From positions 17,300 to 81,299 of the forward strand of contig QHYJ01000072.1 of NCBI GenBank assembly GCA_003223255.1: a DNA stretch of 64,000 nucleotides, written 5' to 3'. Origin of the DNA: Acidobacteriota bacterium. GTDB lineage: Bacteria; Acidobacteriota; Terriglobia; Acidiferrales; UBA7541. The translations under genes were made by a program, and so were the position numbers. Under the pieces are notes generated by a model. It saw only the letters and a list, made by a program, of their open reading frames with translations, was not told the origin of the DNA and did no database searches. Below are positions 19,903 to 57,796 of this stretch, piece after piece. Position 1 is the stretch's first letter; each line of letters opens with the position of its first letter.

Positions 19903-20757
19903 TTACGGTTTCGCAGACAGCCGCAGAAGTTCGCCAAGACGGCGCAATACGCGGTGTGGCCGCCTGCTGAGGGGCTGGGCCTTCCAATCCCGCGCACTGG
20001 TAATGCCGGTGGTGACTGCGAAGCCGATGGCACGCCCGCGGCGAGCCATGATCATTTCCACGAGCGGATCATCCCCCACCACGCCTATTCTGCGCATGGG
20101 AATGCGGAGTTTTCGGGCGACAAACCGCAGCGCGTGAAGAGAAGGCTTGCCGGTGAGAATCATTGGCGATCGTGTCATCTTGCGCACGGCAGTGGCAATG
20201 GCGTGGGAATAGCCCATGGTCTTGCCGCCAGCCGTGGCGAAGAACGGAACGTCCGAAGCGACGTAGAGTTCGGCCCCGTTCCAAATGGCCCTGATGGCCG
20301 CCTCGATGTCTTTCATGCAGCAGTTCGGATGCCAGCCAATGTAGACCGCTTCTGCTTCCTCGGCACCGTCCTGGCCGGTGACGAGGGTTTGGATTCCGGC
20401 CTCCACCAGGACACGAGCGACGCCAGGGGTACCAAGAACCAGGGCCCGCTTTACCCCTCGGCGGAGCATCAGATCCGCCGCCACACTGGACGGAGTGAGC
20501 AATGCCTCGTCAGCGATGGGCAGGCCAAGAGCGCGCAGCTTGGGCGCTTGCTCGGCTGCAGGATAGGCGGTCCCGTTTGTGAACACCACGAACGGAATAC
20601 TGCGGGCCTTCAGGTCGGTCAGCACCTCGATGGCGCCGGGGAGCAACTGGTAGCCGTCCAGGGATCTGTCGGTTAAGACGAGCGTGCCATCAAGATCAAA
20701 CAGGAAGCCCGCAACATGTCCCAAAGACTTTTTCGAGCTGTTCCGTGAACCGCTCAT
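19903..20757 (-). CDS. HAD-superfamily (IIA) phosphatase, acetovanillone-type cluster
   Basis: This is a 284-residue HAD hydrolase with motif I FLFDLDGTLV (nucleophile and acid Asp), motif II VFTNGT, a lysine in LTGKPS, and motif IV GVVGDDPLVEM. The long cap between them marks the NagD/IIA subfamily. In the described acetovanillone and 4-hydroxyacetophenone pathways a HAD phosphatase removes the phosphate from the phosphorylated aryl ketone after carboxylation. The gene overlaps the carboxyltransferase gene by 4 bases and is last in the same leftward operon, which supports that role here. Substrate is inferred from context. Confidence 0.82.
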   Translation of the reverse strand: MSGSRNSSKKSLGHVAGFLFDLDGTLVLTDRSLDGYQLLPGAIEVLTDLKARSIPFVVFTNGTAYPAAEQAPKLRALGLPIADEALLTPSSVAADLMLRRGVKRALVLGTPGVARVLVEAGIQTLVTGQDGAEEAEAVYIGWHPNCCMKDIEAAIRAIWNGAELYVASDVPFFATAGGKTMGYSHAIATAVRKMTRSPMILTGKPSLHALRFVARKLRIPMRRIGVVGDDPLVEMIMARRGRAIGFAVTTGITSARDWKAQPLSRRPHRVLRRLGELLRLSAKP

Positions 20758-22247
20758 CGTCGTACGGTGGCCCCCAGCGAAGTTGACCGGCTGGTCATTT
20801 CCAGCCGGAAGCCTGGCTTGACCGCGGAGATGTGTGAGATGTCACGGCGGGAGCAAAGATACCGGATCAGCTTCTTTACGGGAACCACGTCGGGATCGTA
20901 GGTCTGCGGCGCAGGACCTGCAGCCTTCATTGCATCCACCTGCTCGGCTGGCATGGTGACGCGAAGGAGGAGCTCCTCATCGGAGAGGAGGGATCCGATG
21001 CGACGACGCAGTTCGGCCAGAGACGGCATCCCAGGCTCCTGGCGAAGTTCGCGTGTGCGCGGCAAGGAATCGATGCGGTCCATCACCTCCCGCGCGATGG
21101 GGATGTTCGGTTTTCCGAACCTGCCCAAGGCATAACGGATGACCTCGTCGGGCACGGTGCCATAGCGCTCCGCGGCGGTGACATTGATGACCGCTTGGGC
21201 CAAAAGCAATTGAGAGAACGGCGTCATCACGATAGGCCAGCCCAACTCTTTGCGCACGCGGCCCAGCTCTTCGATCACAGCGGGCTCGAGGTGCGAAAGC
21301 CTGACCTCCGCAATGTGTCGTCGCATGGTGCCCACCATTCCCCCTGGCAACTGATGATGGAAATAGCCTGCGTCAAAAGCTTGTGGTTGACCCGCCGGTA
21401 ATCCTTCGGCTTCTGCCAAGCGAGTAAAGTAGCGCCCCACTTCGGCGAGAGCTTGGTCGTCCACATCCACTTGATGACCGAACTCGCGTAGGTTGGCTAG
21501 CACTCGCCCGGAAGGCGGGTTGGAAATTCCATCGCTGGCCGCACCTGAGGCACATTGCACAGCGCTCACTCCCCATTCCGGCGCGTTCATATACACCAAT
21601 TCACCCAAGCCAATCGTGCAGTGGGAATGAAGCTCGAGAGGCTTATCGCCAATCACTGCCTTGATCGCCGGAATGAGCGTGGAGGCACGCAGCGGCGTCA
21701 GAAGGCCGCCGGGATCCTTAAGATAGAGAGCGTCTACGTGCGGGCTGGCGGCAAGCTGGCGAGCGCAAGCAACGTAGTGAGCATCATCGTGAATGGGGCT
21801 CACTGTAAACACCAAAGCAGTGACGACGTATTGGCCGCCGGCCTCCTTGATCATGCGGGCACAGGCGAGGTTGGAATCGGCATTGTTCATAGGGTCGGCC
21901 AGCGCGAAGCGGCGAATTCCGTGACGCACGAGGGTTCGGAATGCCAGGGCCATGAACTCGGGATTTGCCGTCTCCCAGGAGATAAAGCGGAAGCCAGTGG
22001 AAAGGAACTGCAGAGGCGTGTTTGGCATTGCCTTGGCGGTCAGGCGGATGCGCTCCCAGGGGTCTTCGCGCTTGTAGCGAACGGCAACGGCCATATGAGT
22101 GGACGTGGTGAAGTCAATGGCTTTGAAACCTACCCGATTCATGATTGGCGCGACGCCTAGAGTCTTGGCGGTGTCGATCCCTAACGCTGCCCAGAGGCTC
22201 TGGTTGCCATCACGCAGCGAGGTTTCAACGAGCTGGATGTTAGCCAT
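20754..22247 (-). CDS. Biotin-dependent carboxylase, carboxyltransferase subunit (PycB/OadA-like)
   Basis: This is a 497-residue TIM-barrel carboxyltransferase. It has ETSLRDGNQSLWA (metal Asp and substrate loop), LYLKDPGGLL (the lysine that is carbamylated in relatives) and LELHSHCTIGLGE (H-x-H metal ligands). The fold is that of oxaloacetate decarboxylase alpha and pyruvate carboxylase B, but there is no C-terminal biotinyl domain. That domain is supplied by the separate gene at 23612-24079. The context with a PEP-synthase-like kinase pair points to carboxylation of a phosphorylated hydroxyacetophenone rather than pyruvate. An ordinary pyruvate carboxylase is the main alternative. Confidence 0.85.
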   Translation of the reverse strand: MANIQLVETSLRDGNQSLWAALGIDTAKTLGVAPIMNRVGFKAIDFTTSTHMAVAVRYKREDPWERIRLTAKAMPNTPLQFLSTGFRFISWETANPEFMALAFRTLVRHGIRRFALADPMNNADSNLACARMIKEAGGQYVVTALVFTVSPIHDDAHYVACARQLAASPHVDALYLKDPGGLLTPLRASTLIPAIKAVIGDKPLELHSHCTIGLGELVYMNAPEWGVSAVQCASGAASDGISNPPSGRVLANLREFGHQVDVDDQALAEVGRYFTRLAEAEGLPAGQPQAFDAGYFHHQLPGGMVGTMRRHIAEVRLSHLEPAVIEELGRVRKELGWPIVMTPFSQLLLAQAVINVTAAERYGTVPDEVIRYALGRFGKPNIPIAREVMDRIDSLPRTRELRQEPGMPSLAELRRRIGSLLSDEELLLRVTMPAEQVDAMKAAGPAPQTYDPDVVPVKKLIRYLCSRRDISHISAVKPGFRLEMTSRSTSLGATVRR

Positions 22248-22250
22248 CGG

Positions 22251-23615
22251 TCAGGCCTCCGGCAGGACGCGGCGCCGCTCCAGAAATCGGGGCAAGTAGG
22301 ACGTGTCAACACCGCCTTTTTCAAACTCAGGATCGGCCAATATCTCGGCGTGGAAAGGAAGATTCGTGGCGACGCCATCGATGCGCGTTTGGGCGATTGC
22401 CAGGCGGAGGCGCTCGAGGGTTGAGGCACGGTCGGCGGCATGGACGATTATTTTGGCTATCAGTGAGTCATAAAAGGGCGGGATGCATGCGCCAGGGCCA
22501 ATATGCGTATCGACCCTGATTCCTTCACCAGAAGGCCAAACGACTGAGCGAATGGTGCCCGGGCTGGGACGGAAGTTATGGGCGGGGTCTTCGGCGTTGA
22601 GTCTGCACTCGATGGCGCATCCTTCCGGCCGGATATTTTCTTGCTGCAGAAGCAGGCCTTGGCCATTCGCGACGGCAATTTGCTCGGCCACAAGGTCAAA
22701 GCCGGTCACGGCCTCGGTGACCGGGTGCTCGACTTGGATTCGGGCGTTCATTTCAAGGAAGTAAAAGGCGTCTCGTTCCAGATCGACTAGGAATTCGACC
22801 GTTCCGGCGCTGCGGTAGGCCAAGCGTTCGGCGAACTGCACCGCGGCGGCACGGATGCGAGAAAGAAAGTCTTCGGAGAGAGCCGGAGCCGGCGTTTCTT
22901 CAATCAGCTTCTGATATCGGCGCTGGACCGAACAGTCGCGTTCCCCGAGATGTACCACGTTGCCTTGGCCATCTCCTAAGATTTGGACCTCCACATGACG
23001 AGCACGGGTGATGAACCGTTCCAAGTAGAGCCGTGTGTCGCCAAAGGCTGAGCCTGCCTCGGCGGCGGCGAGCTCCATGGCTTCGGGCAGATCCTCCAGG
23101 CGGTCGACCTTCTTCATGCCGCGACCGCCACCCCCGCCAGCAGCCTTAATCAAGAAAGGGGGGCCGATTTCGCGACCGAGCGCCAGGGCCTCACCGGTTG
23201 TTTCCACCGGGTCACCAGGGACGGTCGGTACGCCAGCGGCTTCTGCTTCGCTTCGCGCGCGGAGCTTATCACCTGCGGCTTCGATCTGGCCTGATGTCGG
23301 ACCGATGAAGATCAGGCCCTGCTCTTCGCAGAGTCTAGCCAGGGCAGTATGTTCCGACAGGAACCCGTAACCTGGATGGATGGCGTCGGCCCGCACGCCC
23401 AGCGCAGCTTGCACGATAGTGTCGGCTTTGAGATAGCTTTCGGAGGGGTGGGCCGGCCCGATGCATAAGGCACGGTGCGCAAGCTTCGCCGGCGGGGAGT
23501 CCAAGTCGGCCTCCGAGGCCGCTAACACGGTTTCGATGCCGAGCGCCCGGCAGGTGCGGATCACTCGCACGGCGATCTCGCCACGGTTCGCGATGAGGAT
23601 GCGGCGGATGGTCAT
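22251..23615 (-). CDS. Biotin carboxylase subunit (AccC/PycA-like)
   Basis: This is a 454-residue ATP-grasp enzyme. It starts RRILIANRGEIAVRVIRTCR and has the ATP loop AAGGGGGRGMKKV. It also has the catalytic segment EMNARIQVEHPVTE and the C-terminal domain with RLNAEDPAHNFRPSPG. It carboxylates the biotin on the adjacent carrier with bicarbonate and ATP. It overlaps the carrier gene by 4 bases and is followed by the carboxyltransferase after 3 bases, so the three form one enzyme complex. Confidence 0.92.
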   Translation of the reverse strand: MTIRRILIANRGEIAVRVIRTCRALGIETVLAASEADLDSPPAKLAHRALCIGPAHPSESYLKADTIVQAALGVRADAIHPGYGFLSEHTALARLCEEQGLIFIGPTSGQIEAAGDKLRARSEAEAAGVPTVPGDPVETTGEALALGREIGPPFLIKAAGGGGGRGMKKVDRLEDLPEAMELAAAEAGSAFGDTRLYLERFITRARHVEVQILGDGQGNVVHLGERDCSVQRRYQKLIEETPAPALSEDFLSRIRAAAVQFAERLAYRSAGTVEFLVDLERDAFYFLEMNARIQVEHPVTEAVTGFDLVAEQIAVANGQGLLLQQENIRPEGCAIECRLNAEDPAHNFRPSPGTIRSVVWPSGEGIRVDTHIGPGACIPPFYDSLIAKIIVHAADRASTLERLRLAIAQTRIDGVATNLPFHAEILADPEFEKGGVDTSYLPRFLERRRVLPEA

Positions 23616-24079
23616 GGCGAAGGCTCGGGGCGCACACGCAACAGAACCTCTCCATATTCGACCAGCGAGCCATTCTCGGGCAGGATTTCGACGACCTCGC
23701 CCTTCACACCGGCGGGGACGGAGTTCATCAGTTTCATCACCTCAATGATGCCGATCACCGTGCCTTCTTCTACTTTGGAGCCCACCTCTATGAAAGGCGG
23801 CTGCCCTGGCTTTGGAGTACGGTAAAAGATACCGAGAAAGGGAGAGGTGACATCCAAGAGGCCCGGTTTTGAGGGTGGCCTGGCCTTTGAGGTCGGCTGC
23901 GGCGGAGGGACGCCTGTCGCTGTTTGCGCCGCCGCATTATTGTGGGTCTGCGACACGGGCACCGTGCAGCTGCGTTGCAGGTTGAGCTTCATGCCGTCCA
24001 TTTCGAGCGACAAGCTGTCGAAACGCGATTGCTCAAGCAGCTTTATAATCTCGGCTACATCCTTGGCCGTGAGAGTCAA
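23612..24079 (-). CDS. Biotin carboxyl carrier protein
   Basis: This is a 155-residue protein with an N-terminal helical domain, an Ala/Pro/Gln linker, and a C-terminal biotinyl domain. The biotinylation site is EVMKLMNSV, with the lysine near residue 117. It resembles AccB. It is coupled by 4-base overlaps to the kinase-like gene upstream and to the biotin carboxylase downstream, so all were probably selected to be made together. Confidence 0.92.
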   Translation of the reverse strand: MTLTAKDVAEIIKLLEQSRFDSLSLEMDGMKLNLQRSCTVPVSQTHNNAAAQTATGVPPPQPTSKARPPSKPGLLDVTSPFLGIFYRTPKPGQPPFIEVGSKVEEGTVIGIIEVMKLMNSVPAGVKGEVVEILPENGSLVEYGEVLLRVRPEPSP

Positions 24080-25221
24080 CGGCGGCCTCCAAAAATGTTC
24101 ATGACGTGCAGGAGGGGGTTCTCTGTGGGTTTGGCGACAGGGGTCTGGTCCCTGGCCGCCCAGACTGTCTCGGGGCGGCTTTGCAACACTAGAATTTCGC
24201 CGGAGCGGTCAATGGCCCATTCGATGTCCTGTGGCTGGCCGTAATGTCGCTCGACTTTGCGGGCGATGTCCTTCAGAGCGGCTAGTTCCTGATCACTGAC
24301 GGAGGACTCGCGGCGAAGATTTTCTGGCGTGTCCACTTCACGCGTGCCGCCGCCAGCGCCGGGCACATGCTGAATGTGCTTGTCCGAGATGTGGCGCACG
24401 GAGATTTCGCCGGTTATCTTGGAAATGACAAAGCGATCCGGCGTGACCTCGCCGCTGACCAGCGCTGAGCCCAAGCCCCAAGTCGCCTCGAGGGTGACCA
24501 CCGAGCGGTCCCCGGTGAGCGGACTGCGCGTGAACATCACTCCCGCAGAGCGCGCGTCGACCATGCGCTGCACAACGACAGCCATCGCCACTGTGTTTTC
24601 CGGTATTCGGTGCTTGCGGCGATAGGCGATGGACGGGACGGAATAAAGGCTAGCCCAGCAGGAGCGTACGCGATTCAAAACTGCCTGGGCCCCCATAACC
24701 CACAAAAAGGTGTCCTGCAGGCCAGCGAAACTGCGGCCTTCGGCATCCTCGGTGGTTGCGGAGGAGCGCACCGCTAGAGGCCAGTTGTTCTCGCCGCAGA
24801 AGTCAGTATGTGCCCCGACGATCTCCATGTGCACACTATCTGGCAATGGCGCTTGTTCCAACCGCGCGCGCAGATTTTCGGAAAGAGCGGTGATCCCATT
24901 CAGATCGTGACCCTCCAATTCTGCCACTCCCGCCCGGATTGGGCCGTCTTCTTCCAGCGCGGCGATAAAGCGTTCGAAAGCGGTCGTGCGGATTACAAAG
25001 CCAGGGGGAACCGCTATTCCGGCGTGCGCCAGCTCGCCCAACGAGCCGCCCTTGCCGCCAACTGCTGGGCGATCACTGAGGGTGATATCGGCAAACCAGC
25101 TGATGCTTTCGGATGAGCGCATGGCAAGCCTGTTCAGACGGTCGCTATCGGGGCCGGCGTTTTCCTGTAAAGCATGGGATGCTTTTTCCTTATTCGGTGA
25201 ACTCCCCGACTGCGGTCCCAC
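24076..25221 (-). CDS. PEP-synthase N-domain-like ATP-binding subunit (phenylphosphate-synthase / HpeHI-AcvAB type)
   Basis: This protein (348-381 residues depending on start) matches the PPDK/PEP-synthase N-terminal nucleotide domain. It has SVGGKGGSLGEL-like VGGKGGSLGELAHAG, the ATP motif LAVRSSATTEDAEGRSFAGLQ, and GVMFTRSPLTGDRSVV. It lacks the phosphohistidine and PEP domains. Such split proteins are known from phenylphosphate synthase of Thauera and from the acetovanillone kinases. Homology begins at the Met encoded at 25122 (SISWFADI); a GTG at 25221, one base after the upstream stop, gives the longer form. The true start is unresolved. Confidence 0.82.
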   Translation of the reverse strand: MGPQSGSSPNKEKASHALQENAGPDSDRLNRLAMRSSESISWFADITLSDRPAVGGKGGSLGELAHAGIAVPPGFVIRTTAFERFIAALEEDGPIRAGVAELEGHDLNGITALSENLRARLEQAPLPDSVHMEIVGAHTDFCGENNWPLAVRSSATTEDAEGRSFAGLQDTFLWVMGAQAVLNRVRSCWASLYSVPSIAYRRKHRIPENTVAMAVVVQRMVDARSAGVMFTRSPLTGDRSVVTLEATWGLGSALVSGEVTPDRFVISKITGEISVRHISDKHIQHVPGAGGGTREVDTPENLRRESSVSDQELAALKDIARKVERHYGQPQDIEWAIDRSGEILVLQSRPETVWAARDQTPVAKPTENPLLHVMNIFGGRR

Positions 25222-25222
25222 G

Positions 25223-27046
25223 TCATTGCAGGATGGTCACCACGCCACGGCCTCCATCGACGCGAATGCGCTGGCCGTCTTTGATCTTTTGCGTGGCCGT
25301 GCCCGTGCCGACCACCGCGGGCAGCCCGTATTCGCGCGCAACAATGGCAGCGTGGCTCATCGAGCCGCCGATGTCCGACACCGCCGCAGCAATCTTCTGA
25401 AAGATTGGCGCCCACGTTGGATTGGTGACCCTGCAAACCAGAATGTCGCCGTGGCGCAAACGGTCTATCTGTTCCACCGATTTCACCACGCGGGCCACGC
25501 CCTCAGCCACGCCACTTGAGGCCGCGAACCCCCTGATTTCGCTGGCATCCGCTTGACCGCCGGCAGCCAGCCACGCATCGAGGCGCTCGCGGGTGATGCC
25601 CCAAAGCAACACAATGGCGGGATCGTCGATCACTTCGGGGACAGGCCCGAGCGCGGGCGGAGTTTCGTGCTCGGCCCATTCCTTAATTGCCGCCTTGCGC
25701 TCCTGCACTATGGCGGGCCAGCGCGCGGGGCCACGAGGGGGCGAGCCGTTGGACCACGCGGTCATCAGGTCGATGATCGCTGCCTCAATCTCGTAGTGTG
25801 TCAGTTGAAAAACGTCCTCAGTGTCCTGAAAGAAACCATGCTCTGCCAGGAGCGCGCCAAACTCTCTAATCTTGTTGAAGAACAAGTTGGTATACCAATG
25901 TTCGCAATAGAATTTGTGGCCCTCGACATAAGGAAACACGCGGTGCGCCAGCGCGATCATCTGGTCATAGGCAGCGCGTTCCTCATCAATGTTTAGGAGC
26001 TCGCGATAATCCTCGATGAGCTGCTTGCGCTCGGCCATCAGTTTCTCGATGGGCCGCTCGATGCACTCACCGGCCTTGGCATTGGCGATGTAGCCGGGCA
26101 GGGCGCTGAAGGGAAGGGAGAGGTCGTCGTTCCACGAGCGGTGGTAATGGTAGAAGCCGTCGCCGACATTGATGTTGAACCACGGGTCGCGGGAGACCGC
26201 CAATTCCTGGAGCCAGGTTCTGCCAGGTTCGCCGAGTTGCTCGAGCGCCTTGATGATGTCGTCCGGCGATGCGCCCTCCCGAAGAACGCCATCGACACCC
26301 AGTTCAATGGCCCGCTTGGCGAGTTTTCTAAGTTCGTCGTCGGGACGAAAGATCTCGGCCTGCATGCCAGAAACCATGCGCGCCACGGTCTGCTCGCTGA
26401 TCTCCGGGAAGGCCTTTTTGCAGAAGTCGAAGAAGGTCATATAGGCGCCGTAACCGAGCAGCAGAAACTCGAAATGGTAGTGCCACATCCGGAAGTAGCC
26501 TTCCAAGGTTTTTTGGTAGACATCGAGGAGATAGTGGTTTGAGGCAATGCCGCGGCCGGCGTGGACATGCTCCAAGGGCTCGAACTCGGGGAGCGCAAGT
26601 TTGCGCAAGGTCTGGGCCTCGCGAATCAACGCCATCATCTTGTCTTTCCATTGCGCGATCAAGCGCTCCCAGTTGGCGTAGTAATAGAAGGCGCGCTGCT
26701 GAAACTCCTTTGTGCGACGCGCAATCTCGGCCGCATCGGTTACGGCGTTGCCGCCAATATAGATGCGTCCGTTGATGATCCGGTAGTCGATGCCTAGTGT
26801 CGTTGGCAGGCAGTGCACGCGCGTGTTCGCTGCGCCCAAAGCGCAGTAGGCGGCCTCCGCGGTGGTAACGTCGAAAGGGCTCATCGGTTCGGGGAAATGC
26901 ATGGAGTTGTAGAACCAGAATCGCTCGTCATCTTCCTTAGTGAACTGCATGTAATAGGGGTAGGCGGCCTGAGCGCGTTCGGTTCCCGGTACGACTTGGA
27001 GCGAACTCGGAAGGGGAAAGCCCGTAGGTTTGACGCTCGCGCTCAT
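25223..27046 (-). CDS. PEP-synthase central-domain-like phosphohistidine subunit (phenylphosphate-synthase / HpeHI-AcvAB type)
   Basis: This is a 607-residue protein. The C-terminal 100 residues carry the swivelling phosphohistidine domain with GGSMSHAAIVAREYGLPAVV (catalytic His). The long N-terminal part resembles the large subunit of phenylphosphate synthase. That enzyme and the Hpe/Acv aryl-ketone kinases move a phosphate from ATP to a phenol through this histidine. The partner ATP subunit follows immediately. Together with the carboxylase and HAD genes downstream, this predicts phosphorylation of a 4-hydroxyphenyl ketone. Confidence 0.83.
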   Translation of the reverse strand: MSASVKPTGFPLPSSLQVVPGTERAQAAYPYYMQFTKEDDERFWFYNSMHFPEPMSPFDVTTAEAAYCALGAANTRVHCLPTTLGIDYRIINGRIYIGGNAVTDAAEIARRTKEFQQRAFYYYANWERLIAQWKDKMMALIREAQTLRKLALPEFEPLEHVHAGRGIASNHYLLDVYQKTLEGYFRMWHYHFEFLLLGYGAYMTFFDFCKKAFPEISEQTVARMVSGMQAEIFRPDDELRKLAKRAIELGVDGVLREGASPDDIIKALEQLGEPGRTWLQELAVSRDPWFNINVGDGFYHYHRSWNDDLSLPFSALPGYIANAKAGECIERPIEKLMAERKQLIEDYRELLNIDEERAAYDQMIALAHRVFPYVEGHKFYCEHWYTNLFFNKIREFGALLAEHGFFQDTEDVFQLTHYEIEAAIIDLMTAWSNGSPPRGPARWPAIVQERKAAIKEWAEHETPPALGPVPEVIDDPAIVLLWGITRERLDAWLAAGGQADASEIRGFAASSGVAEGVARVVKSVEQIDRLRHGDILVCRVTNPTWAPIFQKIAAAVSDIGGSMSHAAIVAREYGLPAVVGTGTATQKIKDGQRIRVDGGRGVVTILQ

Positions 27047-27088
27047 CGCTACACCCCAATAGGTCAGCTCGGGTTATGTCCAGGGATG

Positions 27089-29005
27089 CTAACTCTCCAA
27101 GTTTTGGGAATCAATCCGCAATACCCTTTCGTCCCTGTCTCCGAACAGGATGCCCAGCAGTTCGGGGCGGTTGCGCTGAAGGGCGCGACTATTGACCGTG
27201 CCTTTCTCCGTCAACTCGCCTGCTGCGCTAGACGGGGGGACCTCGACAAGCAACGCCGCGACGATGCGGTTCGAACTGCCTGCTCCAGCGGCAGCAAGTT
27301 GGGCCAAACGTTCCTGGAAGATCGCCCGGAGCGCCTTGTCGGCAGCTAACTCGGCCGGTTTAACCGTATGATTCAGGCCCACCGTTGCGGCGCATACCTC
27401 CCAGTCGGGAAAGACAAGGATGCGGACGTCTTTGCGGTCAGCTCCCACAACCACAACTTCATGCGCGAGTGGTCGCAGAGCATCGAGCGCGTCAAGCCGC
27501 AGCTTTCCGGCGCTGACTTTGGTGCCAGAGCTTAACTTGAAGTCTTCATGAATCCGGCCATCGAAACGGAGACCAGCTTTGGGACGTTGCATATCAATGA
27601 AACTGACCAAGTCACCCGAGCGCAAAAAGCCTTCCTCATCAAAGGCCGTCTTTGTGGCTGCGGGATCTCGCCAATACCCCGAAGTGACATTGGGTCCTCG
27701 GTAGCGGATCTCAAAGCTATGCTCGTGCGGTATCAACTTCAGCTCTACACCGGGGACAGGTATGCCGACCACTCCAGGTCCGCTTGCGTGCACGTTGCCG
27801 AAGAGTGCGATGGGACTCGTTTCGGTCATGCCGAGGCCGGCGACCGTTAGGATTCGGTGTCCCACCGTTTCGACTGCCAGGCGCTCAAGCGCAAACCAGG
27901 TCGCCGGTTGCATCGAAGCCGCGGCATACCAGAGAAACTTGAGACGCCGGAAAAAATGTTCGCGCAGTGCGCGATCGACTTCGAGCTGGGGAATCAATAG
28001 TTCATAGCCCCTGGGCACGTTGAAATAAAGGGTTGGCGATACTCGCTTCAACAGCTCGAGGCTCAGACCAAACAATGCAGGAGTCGGTTTTCCGGGATCG
28101 ATATAGAGCGTGCCACCATTGTGGAGAATGATGCTGAGGTTGCTGTTGCCACCCGCGGTATGGTTCCAGGGAGCCCAGTCCACCATTATTGGCGGCTCGT
28201 CAGCCAGGAAGGGCGCAACTTGCCGCTTCATCTGGGAATTGGAGCAGATCATTCCGTGGGTGTTAATCACCGCCTTGGGCATTCCGGTTGAACCGGAGGT
28301 GAAGAGGTACTTGGCAATAGTTTCCCGGCCAACCCGGGCGGCGGCTGCTCGCACGGCGTCCCGCCGGCTGCCGTCGCCCCGCAGCCCTGCAACAGTGCGC
28401 ATTTTCGGTGACGGATTCCGCAGCGCGATGGTGGGGATATCTGGCTCCAGCGATTGTTCCATTGCGTGGCGATAGAGCGCGCCGTCTTCAATTACCAAGA
28501 GCCCCGGAGTCAGGAGCCGAAAACTGTGAGACAGCTTTTTGTAGTCGGTGCTTTGCAGCGCATAGGCAGGTGCGATCGGTGCGATGGGAATGCCAATGTA
28601 AAGTGCAGCCAGCATGACCAGCGCGTGATCGATGCTGTTTGTGCCGAGTATCGCAAGCGGCCGGTCCGGACTAAGTTCGTACCTGAGAAGGCCTTCGGCA
28701 AGAGCCAGCGCTTCCTCGTGAGCTTCGCTGTAGGAGATTGTTCGCTCGCCGCTGTTTGTCTGTTCAACGAGAAAGGTACGGTCTGGAGCTTTCTGCGCCC
28801 AGCGGTCCAGCCAGTCCCCGATCCGGTTGTCGTAGTCCGCGAGCGGCTCGAGCGATCGCATAAGATAGGCGCCATCGGCCCGGCGGGTCAGCGCAACGTC
28901 GGGCGAGAAGAAGCGCACCGGCCGCAAGGGCGCGCTCTGGAAAGCGCGTTGCTCGTTGAGTGTACTCAATGCCCGAAGCTTAATCGATGAAGTTTGCTGC
29001 GGCAA
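27089..29005 (-). CDS. Feruloyl-CoA-synthase-like aryl CoA ligase
   Basis: This is a 638-residue adenylate-forming enzyme with YLFTSGSTGMPKAV (P-loop), GLGMTETSP, and the RSGDLVSF hinge region. RPVRFFSPDVALTRRADG near residue 28 and the overall length match feruloyl-CoA synthases rather than shorter 4-coumarate ligases. In this cluster it could activate ferulate or the aroyl-acetate made by the carboxylase. The start is uncertain: TTG at 29005 has no good ribosome site, and a TTG at 28969 lies within a palindrome that may be the MarR operator. It is divergent from and overlaps the 5' end of the MarR gene region. Confidence 0.85.
   Translation of the reverse strand: MPQQTSSIKLRALSTLNEQRAFQSAPLRPVRFFSPDVALTRRADGAYLMRSLEPLADYDNRIGDWLDRWAQKAPDRTFLVEQTNSGERTISYSEAHEEALALAEGLLRYELSPDRPLAILGTNSIDHALVMLAALYIGIPIAPIAPAYALQSTDYKKLSHSFRLLTPGLLVIEDGALYRHAMEQSLEPDIPTIALRNPSPKMRTVAGLRGDGSRRDAVRAAAARVGRETIAKYLFTSGSTGMPKAVINTHGMICSNSQMKRQVAPFLADEPPIMVDWAPWNHTAGGNSNLSIILHNGGTLYIDPGKPTPALFGLSLELLKRVSPTLYFNVPRGYELLIPQLEVDRALREHFFRRLKFLWYAAASMQPATWFALERLAVETVGHRILTVAGLGMTETSPIALFGNVHASGPGVVGIPVPGVELKLIPHEHSFEIRYRGPNVTSGYWRDPAATKTAFDEEGFLRSGDLVSFIDMQRPKAGLRFDGRIHEDFKLSSGTKVSAGKLRLDALDALRPLAHEVVVVGADRKDVRILVFPDWEVCAATVGLNHTVKPAELAADKALRAIFQERLAQLAAAGAGSSNRIVAALLVEVPPSSAAGELTEKGTVNSRALQRNRPELLGILFGDRDERVLRIDSQNLES
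28956..28969. promoter_or_regulatory. Candidate MarR operator TTGAGT-GT-ACTCAA
   Basis: A perfect 6-bp inverted repeat with a 2-base centre, at the 5' end of the aryl-CoA ligase gene and 78 bases before the MarR start. Its position between divergent genes fits autoregulation. Confidence 0.45.
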
Positions 29006-29046
29006 GGGCTATGCTAAGCTCATGCTCGGAGTCAGAGGAGAACTTC

Positions 29047-29646
29047 TTGAGTGAAAGAAATCTCGCCGGAGTACGAAACAGGGATCGTCGCCTGATAGCG
29101 TCATCAAGCAGCACCGGCCAACGCGAGGATGAATTATCGACCGATGTTTACGACCAGGCTGGTCACTTAATTCGCCGCGCCCAGCAGATCGCCGTGGCGA
29201 TGTTTTATTCGACCATGGGCTACGAAGTGACACCCGTTCAGTATGCTGTACTGCGAATTCTCCAGGACCACCCGGGAATTGACCAGGTCACGCTGGCGCG
29301 GTTTTGCGCTCTAGATACTTCCACGGCGGCAGACCTGGCGGTGCGGCTAGAAGAGCGTGGACTCGTCAGGCGGATGATGCCGGTGAAAAGCAGACGCTTT
29401 CGTTTGCTGCAACTCACGCCGGAGGGAACCGTGCTTCTGAAAAAGCTCGTACCATTAGGCCATGTGCTGGACCGGCGCCTGCTGCAGCCACTCAACAAAG
29501 AAGAACAAAGAATTTTTCTGAGTCTCTTGAAAAAATTCGTGCACTTAAACAACAAGGAAAGCCGCGCCCCGCTCGACCGCGGATTCGATAGATCGTGCAA
29601 CAACAACACCGATGCGGGCGATAAATGGAAGAGCGCTAATGCGTGA
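29047..29646 (+). CDS. MarR-family regulator
   Basis: This is about a 199-residue winged-helix protein. The DNA-binding part is YEVTPVQYAVLRILQDHPG, then TLARFCALDTSTAADLAVRLEERGLVRR with the basic wing KSRRFRLLQLTPEG. The TTG at 29047 is favoured because GGAG lies 7 bases upstream; an ATG at 28987 would overlap the divergent ligase gene. MarR proteins such as CouR and FerC/FerR sense aryl-CoA thioesters and repress ferulate/coumarate genes. Position next to the aryl-CoA ligase suggests the same kind of effector. Confidence 0.85.
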   Translation: MSERNLAGVRNRDRRLIASSSSTGQREDELSTDVYDQAGHLIRRAQQIAVAMFYSTMGYEVTPVQYAVLRILQDHPGIDQVTLARFCALDTSTAADLAVRLEERGLVRRMMPVKSRRFRLLQLTPEGTVLLKKLVPLGHVLDRRLLQPLNKEEQRIFLSLLKKFVHLNNKESRAPLDRGFDRSCNNNTDAGDKWKSANA

Positions 29647-29808
29647 ATCATTTGCGCCGGCTTTCGCCTCAAGATCTTGAGCATTCGTTGGGCCGCAACC
29701 CGGGGCTAGACAAATTGCGAAGCCCTATCGAAAAACCCGCGGGTTGATGAGATGAGCTGTCTGCGCAGTCTGTCCAGCCTGGGTTTCAAGAACTGTTTGG
29801 AGAATGGT

Positions 29809-30678
29809 ATGACCTCGCCGCCACAAATCGATGTTGGCTCCATCCGCGCTATTGACGTGCACGTGCATCTCGAACCGGATGGCGACGCTACGGCCGCGGA
29901 CGCGGCGGCCAGAAAGTATTTCGGCGAGAGCGGCGCGCCGCGCGACCCGCGCGCTTTGGCGGATTATTATCGTTCCCGAAAAATCGCCTTTGTGGTTTTT
30001 GCCGTCGATGAGCGGCTCACCGGCCGGCGGCAGGTCACGAACGAAGAGGTTGTGAAGTTTGCTGCGGACAACGCAGACATCGCCATTCCTTTTGCCAGCA
30101 TTGATCCACATCGCAGGCAGGAAGGAGTTGAGGAGGCAAAGCGGCTGGTGTCCGCTGGAGCCGTCCGCGGATTGAAGCTCCATCCGCCGGTGCAGCAGTT
30201 CTCTCCGGACGACACCCTGGCGTACCCGCTGTACGAAGTTTTCGCTGCTGCGGGCTTGCCGGTGGTCTTTCATACCGGACACAGCGGCATCGGCACAGCC
30301 ATGCCCGGGGGCGGGGGCGTGCGGCTAAAGTACGGAAATCCGATGCCGATCGACGATGTGGCCGTGGACTTTCCTGGAATGCCCATCATTATGGCCCATC
30401 CTTCGTTTCCCTGGCAGGACGAGGCGATTTCCATTAGTTTGCATAAACCGAATGTCTATATCGACCTCTCCGGCTGGTCGCCGAAATATTTTTCGCCCAC
30501 GCTGGTTCAGTATGCGAACTCCCGTCTCAAGCACAAAGTCCTGTTTGGGTCGGATTATCCCTTCATCACGCCGGACCGCTGGCTCGCCGATTTCGAAACG
30601 ATTTCCATCCGGGACGATGTGCGGCCGCTCATTCTGAAGGGCAATGCGGTGAAGCTCCTCGGTTTGTCTACGGCCTGA
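29809..30678 (+). CDS. Amidohydrolase-2 family hydrolase (aryl-beta-ketoacyl-CoA hydrolase-like)
   Basis: This is about a 289-residue TIM-barrel metal enzyme. It has the H-x-H metal motif in AIDVHVHLEPDGD, GLKLHPPVQQF, VVFHTGHSG, PIIMAHPSFPW and the terminal metal Asp in VLFGSDYPF. It belongs to the amidohydrolase-2 group that includes gamma-resorcylate decarboxylase and the 4-hydroxyphenyl-beta-ketoacyl-CoA hydrolase of Rhodopseudomonas. The latter would release vanillate or 4-hydroxybenzoate plus acetyl-CoA and so complete the aryl-ketone route upstream. The ATG at 29809 has GGAG 6 bases upstream. Confidence 0.75.
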   Translation: MTSPPQIDVGSIRAIDVHVHLEPDGDATAADAAARKYFGESGAPRDPRALADYYRSRKIAFVVFAVDERLTGRRQVTNEEVVKFAADNADIAIPFASIDPHRRQEGVEEAKRLVSAGAVRGLKLHPPVQQFSPDDTLAYPLYEVFAAAGLPVVFHTGHSGIGTAMPGGGGVRLKYGNPMPIDDVAVDFPGMPIIMAHPSFPWQDEAISISLHKPNVYIDLSGWSPKYFSPTLVQYANSRLKHKVLFGSDYPFITPDRWLADFETISIRDDVRPLILKGNAVKLLGLSTA

Positions 30679-30750: not shown

Positions 30751-32232
<1,482 letters not shown>

Positions 32233-32326
32233 GCGGAGTCTCCAGTCACTGGGTTTGCCGCGTCTTAATCTGGTCGACCGTTTTAAGGGGCCGCCTCCGG
32301 AAGGAACTCTCCCACAGAGGTGTCGC

Positions 32327-33295
32327 ATGCAGAACGAACCGCTCATGGACGTGGCCCATTTAGGTCATTTGGAATTGTTGACGCCAAAACCGGAAGAGAG
32401 CTTGCGATTTTTTGTCGACGTGATGGGCATGACGGAAACTGGCCGGGAAGGCGACTCCGTTTATTTGCATGCCTATGACGACTATGAGCGCCACTCCTTG
32501 AAGCTCACGGCGTCAAGGCTGCCAGGCTTGGGCCACGTGGCTTATCGTACCCGCAGCCCGCAAGCCCTCGAACGCCGCGTAGCCGCTTTAAAAGGATCGG
32601 GCTTCGACATCGGCTGGACGAACGGTGACCTGGCGCACGGCCCGGCATTCCTCTGCGAGGACCCGGACGGGCATAAGATCGAGCTCTATTACGAAACACA
32701 GTGGTATCAACCGCCACCCGAGTTGCGTCCAGCGCTGAAAAACCAGGCGCAGCGGTTCCCGGCGCGCGGCACCAACGTGCGCCGCCTGGATCATTGGAAC
32801 GGTCTCGCCGTGGACATCGCGGCGAATCGCGAGTTTTTCGAGAAATACCTCGGCTTTCGCTTGACCGAGCAAATCGTGATGGATGACGGCTCGGAAGCGG
32901 CTATCTGGATGACTTGCACGAACAAGAGCTACGACTTTGCCTACACGCGCGACCATACAGGCACCAAGGGGCGGCTGCATCACATCACCTACGCGGTCAA
33001 CAGCCGGGAAGAGGTGCTCTTAGCAGCAGACATCTGTCTGGAGAATGGGGTGTTTATCGAGACCGGTCCGCACAAGCATGCCATCCAGCAGACGTTCTTC
33101 TTATATGTCTACGAGCCCGGCGGCAATCGCGTGGAAATCGCCAATGCCGGCGCGCGGCTGATTCTTGCCCCGGACTGGAAGCCGATTCGCTGGAGCGAGG
33201 CGGAACGCAAGAAAGGTCAGGCATGGGGTCTCCAGACGATTGAATCGTTTCACACCTATGGCACGCCTCCCGTGGAAGTGGTCACCAAGGTATGA
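32327..33295 (+). CDS. Type I extradiol dioxygenase (VOC superfamily, catechol 2,3-dioxygenase-like)
   Basis: This is a 322-residue, two-module vicinal-oxygen-chelate protein. The first module begins DVAHLGHLELLTPKPEES. The second holds the likely Fe(II) triad: His in RLDHWNGLAVD, His in RLHHITYAVNS and Glu in NRVEIANAG. An AGAGG site precedes the ATG at 32327. Catechol 2,3-dioxygenases cleave next to the hydroxyls. In this operon it lies between the O-demethylase and the gallate lower-pathway genes, where a gallate or 3-O-methylgallate dioxygenase would be expected. Known gallate dioxygenases are of the unrelated LigAB type, so its substrate deserves testing. Confidence 0.85.
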   Translation: MQNEPLMDVAHLGHLELLTPKPEESLRFFVDVMGMTETGREGDSVYLHAYDDYERHSLKLTASRLPGLGHVAYRTRSPQALERRVAALKGSGFDIGWTNGDLAHGPAFLCEDPDGHKIELYYETQWYQPPPELRPALKNQAQRFPARGTNVRRLDHWNGLAVDIAANREFFEKYLGFRLTEQIVMDDGSEAAIWMTCTNKSYDFAYTRDHTGTKGRLHHITYAVNSREEVLLAADICLENGVFIETGPHKHAIQQTFFLYVYEPGGNRVEIANAGARLILAPDWKPIRWSEAERKKGQAWGLQTIESFHTYGTPPVEVVTKV

Positions 33296-33406: not shown

Positions 33407-34126
33407 ATGTCTGACAAGAAGACGGCCCTGGTCGTAAGCGCGCACTCCGCCGATTTTGTCTGGCGAGCCGGAGGGGCAATCGCGCTATACGCGGAGCGCG
33501 GCTGGGAGGTCACCGTGGTTTGTCTCTCTTTCGGGGAACGAGGCGAATCGGCGAAACTCTGGCGGCAGCCGGGGATGACGATGGAAAAGGTTAAGGCCGA
33601 CCGAAAACAAGAAGCTACACGCGCGGCGGAAGTACTCGGCGCGAAGACGATTTTCTTCGACGTGGGCGACTACCCTATGAGAGCACAAGACAGCGTTCTT
33701 TATGAACTGGCGGCGCTTTACAGGAAAATTCGACCCGAATTCATTCTCACGCACTCGCTGAAAGATCCCTACAATTTCGACCATCCGCTTGCTTCCCATG
33801 TGGCGCAGGAAGCTCGTATCGTGGCCCAGGCTCACGGACACGAACCGGGCACGCCTGTAATCGGCGCGCCACCCGTTTTTCTGTTCGAGCCGCATCAACC
33901 CGAGCAGTGCGAATGGAAGCCGCAAGTGCTGCTCGATATCACTCCTGTGTGGCCCAAGAAATACGCCGCATTTCAGGAAATGAACGCTCAGGAACATCTC
34001 TGGCACTACTACGAGCGCGTGGCCTTACAGCGCGGCGCACAGGCCGCGCGCAACTCGCATAAGAACATCAAGTACGGAGAAGCATACCAGCGTGTGTTTC
34101 CGCAGGTTACGGAGGAGCTGCGATGA
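33407..34126 (+). CDS. galB: PIG-L-family 4-oxalomesaconate hydratase (GalB-like)
   Basis: This is a 239-residue PIG-L/LmbE-fold protein with the metal motif in VVSAHSADFVWRAGG (the usual A-H-P-D-D is A-H-S-A-D here) and the second site near THSLKDPYNFDHPLASH. GalB of Pseudomonas putida, a zinc-dependent 4-oxalomesaconate hydratase, belongs to this family. The following two genes encode a LigK-like aldolase and a GalD-like tautomerase, so this assignment fits well. Deacetylation is the general activity of the family and the main alternative. Confidence 0.8.
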   Translation: MSDKKTALVVSAHSADFVWRAGGAIALYAERGWEVTVVCLSFGERGESAKLWRQPGMTMEKVKADRKQEATRAAEVLGAKTIFFDVGDYPMRAQDSVLYELAALYRKIRPEFILTHSLKDPYNFDHPLASHVAQEARIVAQAHGHEPGTPVIGAPPVFLFEPHQPEQCEWKPQVLLDITPVWPKKYAAFQEMNAQEHLWHYYERVALQRGAQAARNSHKNIKYGEAYQRVFPQVTEELR

Positions 34127-34800
34127 ACAAACCCGTGGTCGTCCGGAACGTGGAGCAGCCTCCCTCAGATGCGGTAGCGGCGCTCGAAAAGTATGGCGTT
34201 TCGACGGTTCACGAAGCGCAGGGGCGTTGCGGATTGCTTGCGCCTTATCTGCGTCCCATTTTTCCCGGGGCGGCAATTGCCGGGCCAGCAGTCACTGTGT
34301 CGCTGCCGCCGGGGGACAATCTGATGATCCACGTTGCGGTTGAAGTCTGCCGCCCGGGAAATATCCTTGTGGTCGCACCGACGTCCCCGTGCACAGACGG
34401 CTATTTTGGCGAGTTGCTCGCTACTTCTCTGCGGGCGCACGGCGTGAAGGGGCTTATCATCGAGGCGGGATGTCGTGATATTCGGTTGCTGACAGAAATG
34501 AAGTTTCCCGTCTGGAGCCGCGCCGTGAGCTCGCAAGGAACAGTCAAGGCTACGCTGGGGTCCGTGAACGTGGGCGTGGTGTGCGCGGGCGCCTTCATCG
34601 AGGCCGGCGATGTGATCGTCGCTGACGATGACGGAGCCGTGGTGGTGAAGCGGGCCGTCGCGCGCGAAGTAGCTGACGCGTCAGAGGCGAGGGTTCGCAA
34701 AGAAGAAGCGACTCGTGAGCGCCTTGCGCGCGGGGAACTCGGCCTGGACATTTACGGCCTGCGTTCAAAGGTTAAGGAACTTGGCCTGGAGTACGCGTGA
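34123..34800 (+). CDS. ligK: 4-carboxy-4-hydroxy-2-oxoadipate aldolase (LigK/GalC, RraA fold)
   Basis: This is a 225-residue RraA-like protein with YGVSTVHEAQGRCGLL, GDNLMIHVAV and GLIIEAGCRDIRLL, the conserved substrate and metal region containing the G-x-x-R-D motif. The C-terminal extension DDGAVVVKRAVAREVADASEARVRKEEATRERL is typical of the aldolase subgroup. It splits 4-carboxy-4-hydroxy-2-oxoadipate into pyruvate and oxaloacetate, the last step of the gallate and protocatechuate 4,5-cleavage pathways. It overlaps galB by 4 bases. Confidence 0.85.
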   Translation: MNKPVVVRNVEQPPSDAVAALEKYGVSTVHEAQGRCGLLAPYLRPIFPGAAIAGPAVTVSLPPGDNLMIHVAVEVCRPGNILVVAPTSPCTDGYFGELLATSLRAHGVKGLIIEAGCRDIRLLTEMKFPVWSRAVSSQGTVKATLGSVNVGVVCAGAFIEAGDVIVADDDGAVVVKRAVAREVADASEARVRKEEATRERLARGELGLDIYGLRSKVKELGLEYA

Positions 34801-34814
34801 AGGGAGGTGACCCC

Positions 34815-35933
34815 ATGGGTCGGGTATCGCAAACTTCCATTCCCTGTACGCTAATGCGGGGCGGGACTTCCAAGGGACCATTTTTCGTTGCAAGCGACCT
34901 CCCGAGCGAGGAGGAGTTGCGAGACCACGTGTTGCTCGCGGTAATGGGTTCTCCCGATGTGCGGCAGATCGATGGCATTGGCGGCGCCGATCCTCTCACC
35001 AGCAAAGTGGCCATCGTATCTCGTTCTGCGCGGCCGGGAATCGATGTGGATTATCTCTTTGCGCAGGTTTCCATCGACCGGCCGCTTGTTGATGTGACTC
35101 CGACCTGCGGGAATATGCTCGCTGGGGTTGGCCCCTTTGCGATCGAGCGAGGTCTCGTCGTGCCGCGCGATCCGGTCACCCCTGTCAGAATCTACATGGT
35201 GAACACGGCAAACGTCGCCATCGCGCACGTGCCGACCCCTAGCGGCGTTGCGACCTACGAAGGCGAAGCTACCATTGCAGGCGTGCCTGGCACCTCGGCC
35301 GCAATCCGTATCGACTTTCTTGATACCGCCGGTGCGGTGTGCGGCGCGCTCTTGCCAACAGGCCGCTCGCTTGATGAGCTTGACGGGATGGAGGCAACAC
35401 TAATCGACAACGGCATGCCTGTGGCCGTCTTGCGTGCCGAGTATTTTGGGAAATCCGGGTATGAGACTCCCGCCGAACTCGATGCCGATAAGAAGTTCAA
35501 GGCGCGTCTCGAAGAAATTCGCATTATTGTGGGCGAACGCATGGGGTTGGGCGACGTGCGCACAAAGGTTGTTCCAAAGATGACTTTGATCGCGCCACCG
35601 CAGAGCGGCGGGCACGTCGCCACGCGCACCTTCATCCCGCACAAATGCCACGCGGCCATAGGAGTTTTAGGTGCTGTGACGGTCGGAACCGCCTGTGTGC
35701 TACCCGGTTCGGTCGCCCGGGGCATGGTGTCCATTCCTGAGGGGCCCGTGAAGCGGCTCTCGGTCGAGCACCCCACCGGCGAGTTTTCGCTTGAAATTGA
35801 GGTGGAGGAAGGAAGCGGCGGTTTGAAGGTAGTCCGCTCAAGCCTCATTCGCACAGCTCGCGCGCTATTCCGCGGCAAAGTACTCGTTCCGGCGAATATT
35901 TGGGATGGTGTCGCGCGCGACTCTCCGCTGTGA
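34815..35933 (+). CDS. galD: 4-oxalomesaconate tautomerase (GalD, PrpF family)
   Basis: This is a 372-residue PrpF-family protein: IPCTLMRGGTSKGPFF at the N-terminus, DGIGGADPLTSKVAIV, and DVTPTCGNMLAGVGPFAIE with the catalytic cysteine. A strong Shine-Dalgarno (GGGAGGTGA) 4 bases before the ATG at 34815 sets the start. GalD interconverts 4-oxalomesaconate tautomers in gallate degradation; PrpF (methylaconitate isomerase) is the alternative but does not fit the neighbours. It completes a galB-ligK-galD set. Confidence 0.87.
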   Translation: MGRVSQTSIPCTLMRGGTSKGPFFVASDLPSEEELRDHVLLAVMGSPDVRQIDGIGGADPLTSKVAIVSRSARPGIDVDYLFAQVSIDRPLVDVTPTCGNMLAGVGPFAIERGLVVPRDPVTPVRIYMVNTANVAIAHVPTPSGVATYEGEATIAGVPGTSAAIRIDFLDTAGAVCGALLPTGRSLDELDGMEATLIDNGMPVAVLRAEYFGKSGYETPAELDADKKFKARLEEIRIIVGERMGLGDVRTKVVPKMTLIAPPQSGGHVATRTFIPHKCHAAIGVLGAVTVGTACVLPGSVARGMVSIPEGPVKRLSVEHPTGEFSLEIEVEEGSGGLKVVRSSLIRTARALFRGKVLVPANIWDGVARDSPL

Positions 35934-39692: not shown

Positions 39693-39964
39693 ATGCCCTT
39701 TGCTGAACTTGGGGACGCGCGAATCCATTACCGTCTGGAAGGTCCGGAAGCCGCGCCAGTGGTGGTGTTTTCCAATTCGCTGGGCGCAGACTATTCGATG
39801 TGGAATCCGTAAGCGACTTCATGGGCGAATAAGTTTCGAATCCTGCGCTACGACACGCGCGGACACGGACAAAGCTCGGTGACGCGGGGGGCCGTATTCG
39901 ATTGATCAGCTCGCCAAAGATGCAGTCAACTTGCTGGCAAGTTAACGCATTTCTCGAAGCGTGA
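39693..39964 (+). pseudogene. pcaD: 3-oxoadipate enol-lactonase gene reduced to its two ends
   Basis: The frame begins MPFAELGDARIHYRLEG and reads VVVFSNSLGADYSMWNP before a TAA at 39810-39812, where Gln is usual. It continues RILRYDTRGHGQSS and shifts frame at a run of six G's near 39888. It then goes on PYSIDQLAKDAVNLLAS and jumps out of frame to VNAFLEA and a stop at 39962-39964. A normal enzyme is about 260 residues, so roughly 170 internal residues including the catalytic serine elbow are gone. The remaining ends fit the canonical termini closely. The activity must come from elsewhere. Confidence 0.85.
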
Positions 39965-39973
39965 GGAGGGCCG

Positions 39974-47069: not shown

Positions 47070-47070
47070 G

Positions 47071-57647: not shown

Positions 57648-57796
57648 GCCGGGAGATAGCCAGGAGTAGATTGTGCCGGTGGGCAGGCTTTCGATGGCAT
57701 GCCTGCTTCCCATTTTCCTTGGGGAAGCTGCCATGCGGGGTAGCATCTTCGGCCGGCGCAGTTTCGGGTTCAATTCGTTCTTAGAAGGGGTGGGTC

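Follow-up and report, generated by a model that had tools for sequence, protein, structure and literature searches.

A probable Acv-type hydroxyphenylethanone gene cluster joined to O-demethylation and ring-cleavage genes in a member of the Acidobacteriota

Introduction

Acidobacteriota are a common soil phylum that is poorly cultured. Do its members carry genes to consume lignin ketones such as acetovanillone? The question is raised by a 64,000-nucleotide stretch of an Acidobacteriota genome (GCA_003223255.1, contig QHYJ01000072.1, positions 17,300 to 81,299), hereafter the window. An earlier note, made from its letters, had described at positions 19,903 to 30,678 a complete acetovanillone or 4-hydroxyacetophenone route. 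We read this locus as the core of an Acv-type hydroxyphenylethanone pathway, and we put the probability of this reading at roughly 0.8. What is observed is gene content, order, homology, conserved residues and recurrence; every reaction and substrate in the window organism we infer from these. The gene island extends past the limits first described, through O-demethylation and ring cleavage, to 35,933, so that an Acv-type cluster of the Acidobacteriota is joined to demethylation and ring-cleavage genes at one locus.

Growth on hydroxyphenylethanones has been reported for only four strains or their mutants, and loci with clustered kinase and carboxylase genes are uncommon (52 of 836; PMC13101465). 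The pathway itself is known; the phylum, an exchanged ligase and a lower pathway linked to a VOC-fold enzyme differ from those described. Searches of the open-access literature, mostly of paper listings, turned up no report of Acidobacteriota with acetovanillone degradation or with ligM. If the reading is true, Acidobacteriota become candidate consumers of lignin ketones, the CoA-activation step has a second enzyme solution, and the VOC enzyme is a testable candidate for a gallate dioxygenase of non-LigB type.

Core genes and their kinship to the SYK-6 cluster

All eight genes listed by the earlier note were found by profile matches where it had placed them. Seven lie side by side on the minus strand (19,903-29,005) and are transcribed in the order CoA ligase, large kinase subunit (KA), ATP-grasp kinase subunit (KB), biotin carboxyl carrier protein (BCCP), biotin carboxylase (BC), carboxyltransferase (CT) and HAD-IIA phosphatase (HAD). 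KA (25,223-27,046), of the HpeH type with a swivelling His domain, matches PEP-utilizers Pfam families and NF006153 (788 bits; cut-off 578); KB (24,076-25,221), of the HpeI type, matches PPDK_N (327 bits); and BCCP (23,612-24,079), of the AcvC/HpeC type, matches Biotin_lipoyl and TIGR00531 (117.1 against 115.2). They are followed by BC (22,251-23,615), whose next-best copies in its own genome are 48-49% identical, by CT (20,754-22,247; HMGL-like and PYC_OADA) and by the AcvF/HpeD-type phosphatase (19,903-20,757; Hydrolase_6). The six genes from kinase to phosphatase stand in the same order in Sphingobium SYK-6, with identities of 74% (KA), 63% (KB), 56% (BCCP), 68% (BC), 70% (CT) and 57% (HAD).

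The junctions had been described as mostly 4-base overlaps, which holds for three of the six (KB/BCCP, BCCP/BC and CT/HAD), the other three being gaps of 1 base (KA/KB), 3 bases (BC/CT) and 42 bases (ligase/KA). The 1-base gap is valid only with a far-upstream start of KB, and relatives suggest that its true start is probably about 33 codons downstream of the open reading frame (ORF) start. The spacing of HAD and CT suggests that they belong to one operon. Divergent from the ligase is a MarR-family regulator gene (28,987-29,646, plus strand; NCBIfam MarR-type matches under cut-off), the true start of which is probably further downstream.

SYK-6 is represented here by genome G461, identified by 12 kb of plasmid pSLPG that match its second contig at 100%. 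Its genome holds a single kinase match, the best among KA matches in 27 of the 298 genomes of its family, Sphingomonadaceae (E up to 1e-60), all of them 71-75% identical to the window protein. In trees of 52 KA and 60 KB sequences, from which we left out rows under 75% coverage and locus L081, which duplicates L026, the window and SYK-6 kinases fall in one clade (SH-aLRT 100 for KA and 98 for KB). The trees were built by a quick method and several of their outgroup branches are long, so that even well-supported branches can be false and the deep order is unsure. Outside the clade lie the kinase of Rhodococcus sp. JS3073, labelled Hpe from its gene order and standing in for HpeHI of strain GD02, the phenylphosphate synthase of Azoarcus, and two Rhodococcus kinases (L111 and L112), which we take to be Cre-type from the P450 among their neighbours, after the cre cluster. 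The check proposed for the kinase subunits thus places them with SYK-6, apart from the phenylphosphate synthase and the Cre-type kinases.

Six genes in one order, 56-74% identity and a shared kinase clade are what the window has in common with AcvABCDEF of SYK-6, and they bear out the claim that parts of the Hpe/Acv pathways are present. For SYK-6 to grow on acetovanillone, its acv genes are reportedly indispensable (PMC9618137, reporting Higuchi et al.). The window differs in its phylum and in its adjacent feruloyl-CoA-synthase-like (FCS-like) ligase and amidohydrolase, whereas SYK-6 reportedly uses VceA/VceB (PMC9618137). With HpeHICBADEF of Rhodococcus rhodochrous GD02 it shares the functional enzyme set, with ligase and amidohydrolase inside the cluster (PMC9618137), but five core proteins of the Hpe-ordered JS3073 cluster are only 34-51% identical to those of the window (BCCP unscored). 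The masses reported for HpeH, I, C, B, A and D (PMC9618137) are close to those calculated for KA (68.6 kDa), KB (41.3), BCCP (16.6), BC (49.0), CT (54.5) and HAD (30.6). In Table 1 of the same paper hpeB is named a carboxyltransferase and hpeA a biotin carboxylase, with stated masses of 49.3 and 57.4 kDa; compared with the window alone, these masses and the gene order fit swapped labels. The route of Novosphingobium aromaticivorans with the single-component kinase MarK is very similar after the kinase, but the window kinase has two subunits (MarK as described in PMC13101465). Phenylphosphate synthase and CreHI are likewise two-subunit, PEP-synthase-like phenol kinases, but their partner genes differ and, as above, the references fall outside the window clade.

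The core proteins look functional by comparison with 48-86 relatives each, because only two of 384 near-invariant columns (at least 98% one letter) of the six proteins differ (382 of 384 match), namely A163R in KB and L312I in CT. Expected motifs are present in the kinase (GGSMSH), BCCP (EVMKLM), CT (RDGNQS and HSHC), HAD (DLDGT) and ligase (TSGSTGMPK), GGSMSH holding the swivel His and EVMKLM being the biotin motif; of the patterns scanned, three of four for BC, two of three for HAD and two of four for KB were unmatched.

A scan of named genomes gave at least 577 candidate loci, the best 80 of which, from Acidobacteriota, Gammaproteobacteria, Sphingomonadales and others, underlie the counts of listed loci below. 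The same core order occurs in dozens of other loci listed, some without BC, and since it repeats in SYK-6 and in these dozens, the grouping is more than chance. A closer group among them has CT identities of 64-81% and, where KA is in the locus, KA identities of 70-91%. The MarR gene is conserved (65-78%) next to the kinase genes in seven of the Acidobacteriota loci.

A carboxylase distinct from pyruvate carboxylase

The three-component biotin carboxylase complex of the window is distinct from pyruvate carboxylase. CT is 70% identical to the SYK-6 copy, whereas its identity to the pyruvate-carboxylase-like frames found in the genus, mostly long ones, is just 24-28%, and the check proposed for this subunit thus also came out in favor of the Acv assignment. 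A true pyruvate carboxylase or oxaloacetate decarboxylase was ruled out, as all PycB/OadA profiles stay under cut-off and the genome has its own pyruvate carboxylase in a separate gene, 27% identical to CT.

Operons without BC, in which BCCP and CT lie within 200 bases and the locus has no BC match, make up 17 of the 85 rows listed (L029, L030, L031, L033, L034, L039, L050, L054, L056, L057, L064, L066, L072, L077, L085, L088 and L097). The 85 rows are 84 distinct loci (L026 = L081), and an 18th row without BC, L024, has a different gene order. Such operons may be served by a shared housekeeping BC subunit, because the best BC in six genomes that have them is only 47-49% identical. In three Acidobacteriota operons of this kind (L130:6492-7118, L132 and L135) a ChrR-cupin-like gene lies between the kinase subunits, and others have a similar-sized gap there.

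The last two steps and the proposed route

The ligase (27,089-29,005, minus strand; AMP-binding Pfam) matches PRK12582 with 659.1 bits, under the cut-off of 777, a family which we take to include feruloyl-CoA synthases. Compared with the HpeE-type ligase of Rhizobium (not GD02 HpeE itself), which is acetoacetyl-CoA-synthetase-like, it is barely alignable (best stretch 183 amino acids at 27%) and lies outside that type. An FCS-like ligase is found in five of the 13 closer-group Acidobacteriota loci listed, and two further genomes add it (L129 and L134); an HpeE-type ligase (51%) is found in the other lineage, represented by locus L081 of G031, a second genome of the window's genus, and in six closer-group proteobacterial loci listed.

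The amidohydrolase (29,752-30,678, plus strand; Amidohydro_2), a HpeF/CouO-like putative beta-ketoacyl-CoA hydrolase, is 51% identical to the JS3073 copy and 55-56% to three others in Hpe-type clusters (Rhizobium, Pseudomonas and G031), and is of the HpeF type by homology to these clusters, which stand in for GD02 HpeF. The 2-pyrone-4,6-dicarboxylate (PDC) hydrolase LigI was rejected as its identity, since of its two solved relatives listed neither is a PDC hydrolase; solved PDC hydrolase structures do exist. We propose that the ligase activates vanilloylacetate-type beta-keto acids and/or ferulate, and consider it rather likely that ligase and amidohydrolase are the finishing pair of the pathway. 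The suggestion that these two could finish the route gains from the likeness of the amidohydrolase to Hpe-type enzymes and loses from the ligase, which may primarily be a feruloyl-CoA synthetase.

In the route we propose, the kinase would phosphorylate the phenol group of acetovanillone or another 4-hydroxyacetophenone, the BCCP/BC/CT enzyme would then carboxylate the acetyl methyl group, and the HAD enzyme would remove the phosphate to give a 4-hydroxybenzoyl-acetate. The FCS-like ligase would make the CoA ester of this product, and the amidohydrolase would split it into vanillate (or 4-hydroxybenzoate or syringate) and acetyl-CoA. What the earlier note called complete is complete in gene content; the reactions, the substrate and the last steps are read from homology. 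The substrate would be acetovanillone, perhaps acetosyringone or 4-hydroxyacetophenone.

Demethylation and ring-cleavage genes

Downstream of the amidohydrolase, on the plus strand, lies a gene for a LigM-type tetrahydrofolate-dependent vanillate/3-O-methylgallate O-demethylase (30,757-32,232; NF047885 752.8 against a cut-off of 580; LigM structure 5tl4, 651 bits), which would convert vanillate to protocatechuate or 3-O-methylgallate to gallate. Next come the gene of a VOC-fold (type I) extradiol dioxygenase (32,201-33,295; TIGR03211 344.4 against 320.2) and all three genes of a 4-oxalomesaconate (OMA) pathway, for a GalB-type hydratase (33,407-34,126; solved enzyme 5cgz, 365.8 bits, E 8.3e-109), a LigK/GalC-type 4-carboxy-4-hydroxy-2-oxoadipate aldolase (34,123-34,800; TIGR02798 327.6 against 304.5) and a GalD-type tautomerase (34,797-35,933; NF033377 524.6 against 440). 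Gallate would leave through the VOC dioxygenase and these enzymes to pyruvate and oxaloacetate, and protocatechuate through PcaHG and PcaB, encoded at 38,329-39,687 (PcaB-type 3-carboxymuconate cycloisomerase, plus strand; TIGR02426 434.7 against 355.75), 47,071-47,775 (PcaH, protocatechuate 3,4-dioxygenase beta subunit, minus strand; TIGR02422 351.8 against 296.4) and 46,503-47,111 (PcaG, alpha subunit, minus strand; tblastn with PcaG of L085, 51% over 203 amino acids).

The VOC gene probably starts at 32,327. The fold of its product is settled by similarity to solved VOC enzymes (9wgj, 392 bits), and H198, H261 and E312 of the ORF (H153, H216 and E267 of A2), presumably a 2-His-1-Glu metal triad, are invariant in six sequences. 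NCBIfam names the protein catechol 2,3-dioxygenase. Judged by its neighbors, no other enzyme is as good a candidate for the formation of 4-oxalomesaconate, for which gallate would be the simplest source. The LigB domain PF02900 scored over cut-off in none of the eight genomes that hold the VOC and OMA genes, which makes the VOC enzyme a candidate gallate dioxygenase of non-LigB type; there was no match in the window genome (97% complete, 428 contigs) and one sub-threshold match in G308, and the same search gives matches in 4 of 14 control genomes. No report of a VOC-type gallate dioxygenase was found in open-access searches, mostly of paper listings. AromaDeg assigns gallate and methylgallate dioxygenases to the LigB superfamily (PMC4250580), so the VOC enzyme adjacent to the window's GalB, LigK/GalC and GalD types sets it apart from GalBCD systems, which it otherwise resembles (the GalB type being represented by structure 5cgz). 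The LigM-type demethylase feeding gallate and 4-oxalomesaconate resembles the LigM/DesA/DesB syringate-gallate pathway of SYK-6 (PMC6888825), as do the DesA and MetF-like genes of related islands, but the ring-cleavage gene of the window is VOC-fold. GalBCD is the lower pathway of the P. putida type. As the window genome lacks DesA, its gallate would have to derive from 3-O-methylgallate or be taken up from outside.

The VOC gene is 87-91% identical in 9 of the 13 Acidobacteriota genomes reached through CT, which are related and hence not nine independent events, and is absent from the 14th genome so reached (Novosphingobium); phylum-wide it occurs in 3 of 247 genomes, the window's own included. 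Hydratase and aldolase genes adjoin it in seven of the nine, and neither was present in the stretches examined of G311 and G315 (20 kb and 8.9 kb). Two phylum members with more distant copies differ, G170 (58%) having all three OMA genes adjacent and G206 (48%) none. The VOC protein matches 325 plasmid records, and in three of five hand-picked ones OMA genes adjoin it: Thermus oshimai (hydratase and aldolase), Agrobacterium (aldolase and tautomerase) and R. etli (all three). The other two, Roseomonas and Methylobacterium, have a DUF1932 gene and an amidohydrolase and no OMA genes within 6 kb; at the Roseomonas locus a class III extradiol dioxygenase is annotated as well. On the R. etli plasmid (L167:6001-6963) the VOC gene has stop codons and the aldolase is matched in two pieces, so that this module looks broken.

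Alternative readings

Several observations count against the proposed route or parts of it. The SYK-6 cluster was equated with acvABCDEF from its sole kinase match and the synteny statement for the acv genes in PMC9618137, not from locus tags. SYK-6 AcvAB is reportedly most active on 4-hydroxyacetophenone, with acetovanillone at 10% and acetosyringone at 17% of that activity (PMC13101465), so the kinase clade cannot fix the substrate. VceA/VceB reportedly carry out the last steps in SYK-6, in place of a homologous ligase and hydrolase (PMC9618137). A FadJ-like hydratase/dehydrogenase gene between ligase and LigM in three of five related islands points to ferulate, on which the ligase may therefore act too. 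DesA over cut-off was not found in the window genome, the best match being the LigM gene, sub-cut-off, so that an acetosyringone route would stop at syringate. The weakest steps are the ligase assignment and the VOC substrate.

That the kinase is a phenylphosphate synthase or Cre-type cresol kinase is very improbable: such kinases are of the same superfamily and 42-45% identical, but the KA and KB trees exclude them, and the phenylphosphate carboxylase genes beside the Azoarcus reference and the P450 beside the Rhodococcus ones, as well as a CBS subunit, had no counterpart in a Pfam scan of 30 window proteins. A native substrate of the H type, 4-hydroxyacetophenone rather than methoxylated ketones, would suit the characterized kinases and the GD02 carboxylase, which also accept and often prefer it (PMC9618137, PMC13101465), but LigM adjoins the cluster both in the window and in related islands, which also have DesA and MetF-like genes, as fits methoxylated substrates, and we consider this unlikely. 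Somewhat less unlikely, though still doubtful, is that ligase and amidohydrolase serve a CoA-dependent, Cou-like beta-oxidation of ferulate, the last two Acv steps being done by other enzymes or partly shared. The ligase is nearest to PRK12582, the FadJ-like ECH/3HCDH gene adjoins it in L129, L130 and L132, and GD02 HpeE belongs to a different type of ligase (PMC9618137). Yet the window ligase shares its strand with the kinase and lies just 42 bases upstream, a search of the window gave no homologue of the island FadJ (the closest copy elsewhere in the genome reaches 45% identity), ligase and LigM adjoin without FadJ in L134 and L135, and none of the 13 closer-group Acidobacteriota loci listed, many with short flanks, has an HpeE-type ligase. 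Ferulate through beta-oxidation and vanilloylacetate would also converge on one beta-keto-CoA split by the amidohydrolase, so the two uses are compatible.

For the VOC enzyme, we give even odds to a wider proposal, that it represents an undescribed family of type I gallate dioxygenases supplying 4-oxalomesaconate to GalB/LigK/GalD without LigB types, and that the Acidobacteriota island in its fullest form mineralizes guaiacyl and syringyl lignin ketones. It is improbable, though worth weighing, that the enzyme instead cleaves protocatechuate as a 4,5-dioxygenase and that the DUF1932 oxidoreductase found in related islands acts after it. Genes of the DUF1932 type occur together with VOC in Roseomonas, Methylobacterium, Thermus and six acidobacterial islands, and at the Thermus locus a 4-hydroxybenzoate 3-monooxygenase is annotated, whereas no tautomerase lies within 6 kb. 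But no DUF1932 homologue was found in the window, pcaHG and pcaB already handle protocatechuate in window and islands, DesA and LigM of the islands would yield gallate, and gallate cleavage gives 4-oxalomesaconate directly (PMC6888825). Plain catechol cleavage remains among the readings of this enzyme, beside the gallate role that we prefer.

Distribution and neighboring genes

The island repeats in metagenome-assembled genomes (MAGs) of Ca. Sulfotelmatobacter type, with both arms around the MarR gene, and much of it, together with desA and pca genes, recurs in related Acidobacteriota. In L130 and L131 the order is HAD, CT, BCCP, KB, cupin, KA and MarR, then ligase, FadJ, LigM, MetF, VOC, GalB, LigK, GalD and DUF1932, then GntR and DesA and, further on, amidohydrolase, PcaDC and PcaB; the DesA cut-off is 800, and the scores are 800.5 in L131 and 797.3 in L129. 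The FadJ, MetF, DUF1932 and DesA genes of these islands were not found in the window, and because it lacks them the window island appears to be a reduced or rearranged form of the fuller acidobacterial island.

A kinase at least 70% identical was found, among 247 genomes across the phylum, only in the window's own. CT at 54% or more occurs in 2 of the 36 genomes of the genus, the window's and G031. A contig of G031 shares an identical stretch of 17,840 bases with JABCYZ010000039.1, which belongs to an Acidobacteria MAG, and this confirms the phylum. In the tree the G031 cluster groups, with moderate support, beside Burkholderiaceae and Streptomyces, and because it falls outside the window clade, one genus holds two cluster lineages. 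A PQQ alcohol dehydrogenase (40,540-42,684) and an MFS transporter (43,595-44,896) are common to the window and the G031 cluster (75 and 69%); a link of the dehydrogenase to the cluster was dropped, as copies of 65-75% occur in six genus members (G007, G009, G010, G013, G020 and G028) in which no acv-type CT was found. At 39,693-40,330 the window has PcaDC-like pieces (residues 1-66 and 262-380 matched, in different frames), which suggests an enol-lactonase/decarboxylase fusion that is internally deleted or decayed. A TonB-dependent receptor-like outer membrane protein (57,794-61,381), 62% identical to one beside the L085 island, is a candidate uptake partner.

Other loci listed have a Tm-1-like ATP-binding protein, with no two-subunit kinase seen (L021, L022, L067, L068, L070, L071, L073-L076, L078-L080, L089, L090, L093, L095, L100, L101, L105 and L106); some are from species named for bisphenol degradation, and these clusters are possibly of the single-component kinase type. 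On the Rhizobium leguminosarum plasmid pRlBT01c (L020), which is typed as mobilizable, the genes of kinase, carboxylase, phosphatase, HpeE-type ligase and amidohydrolase stand side by side and make up a full Hpe-like cluster.

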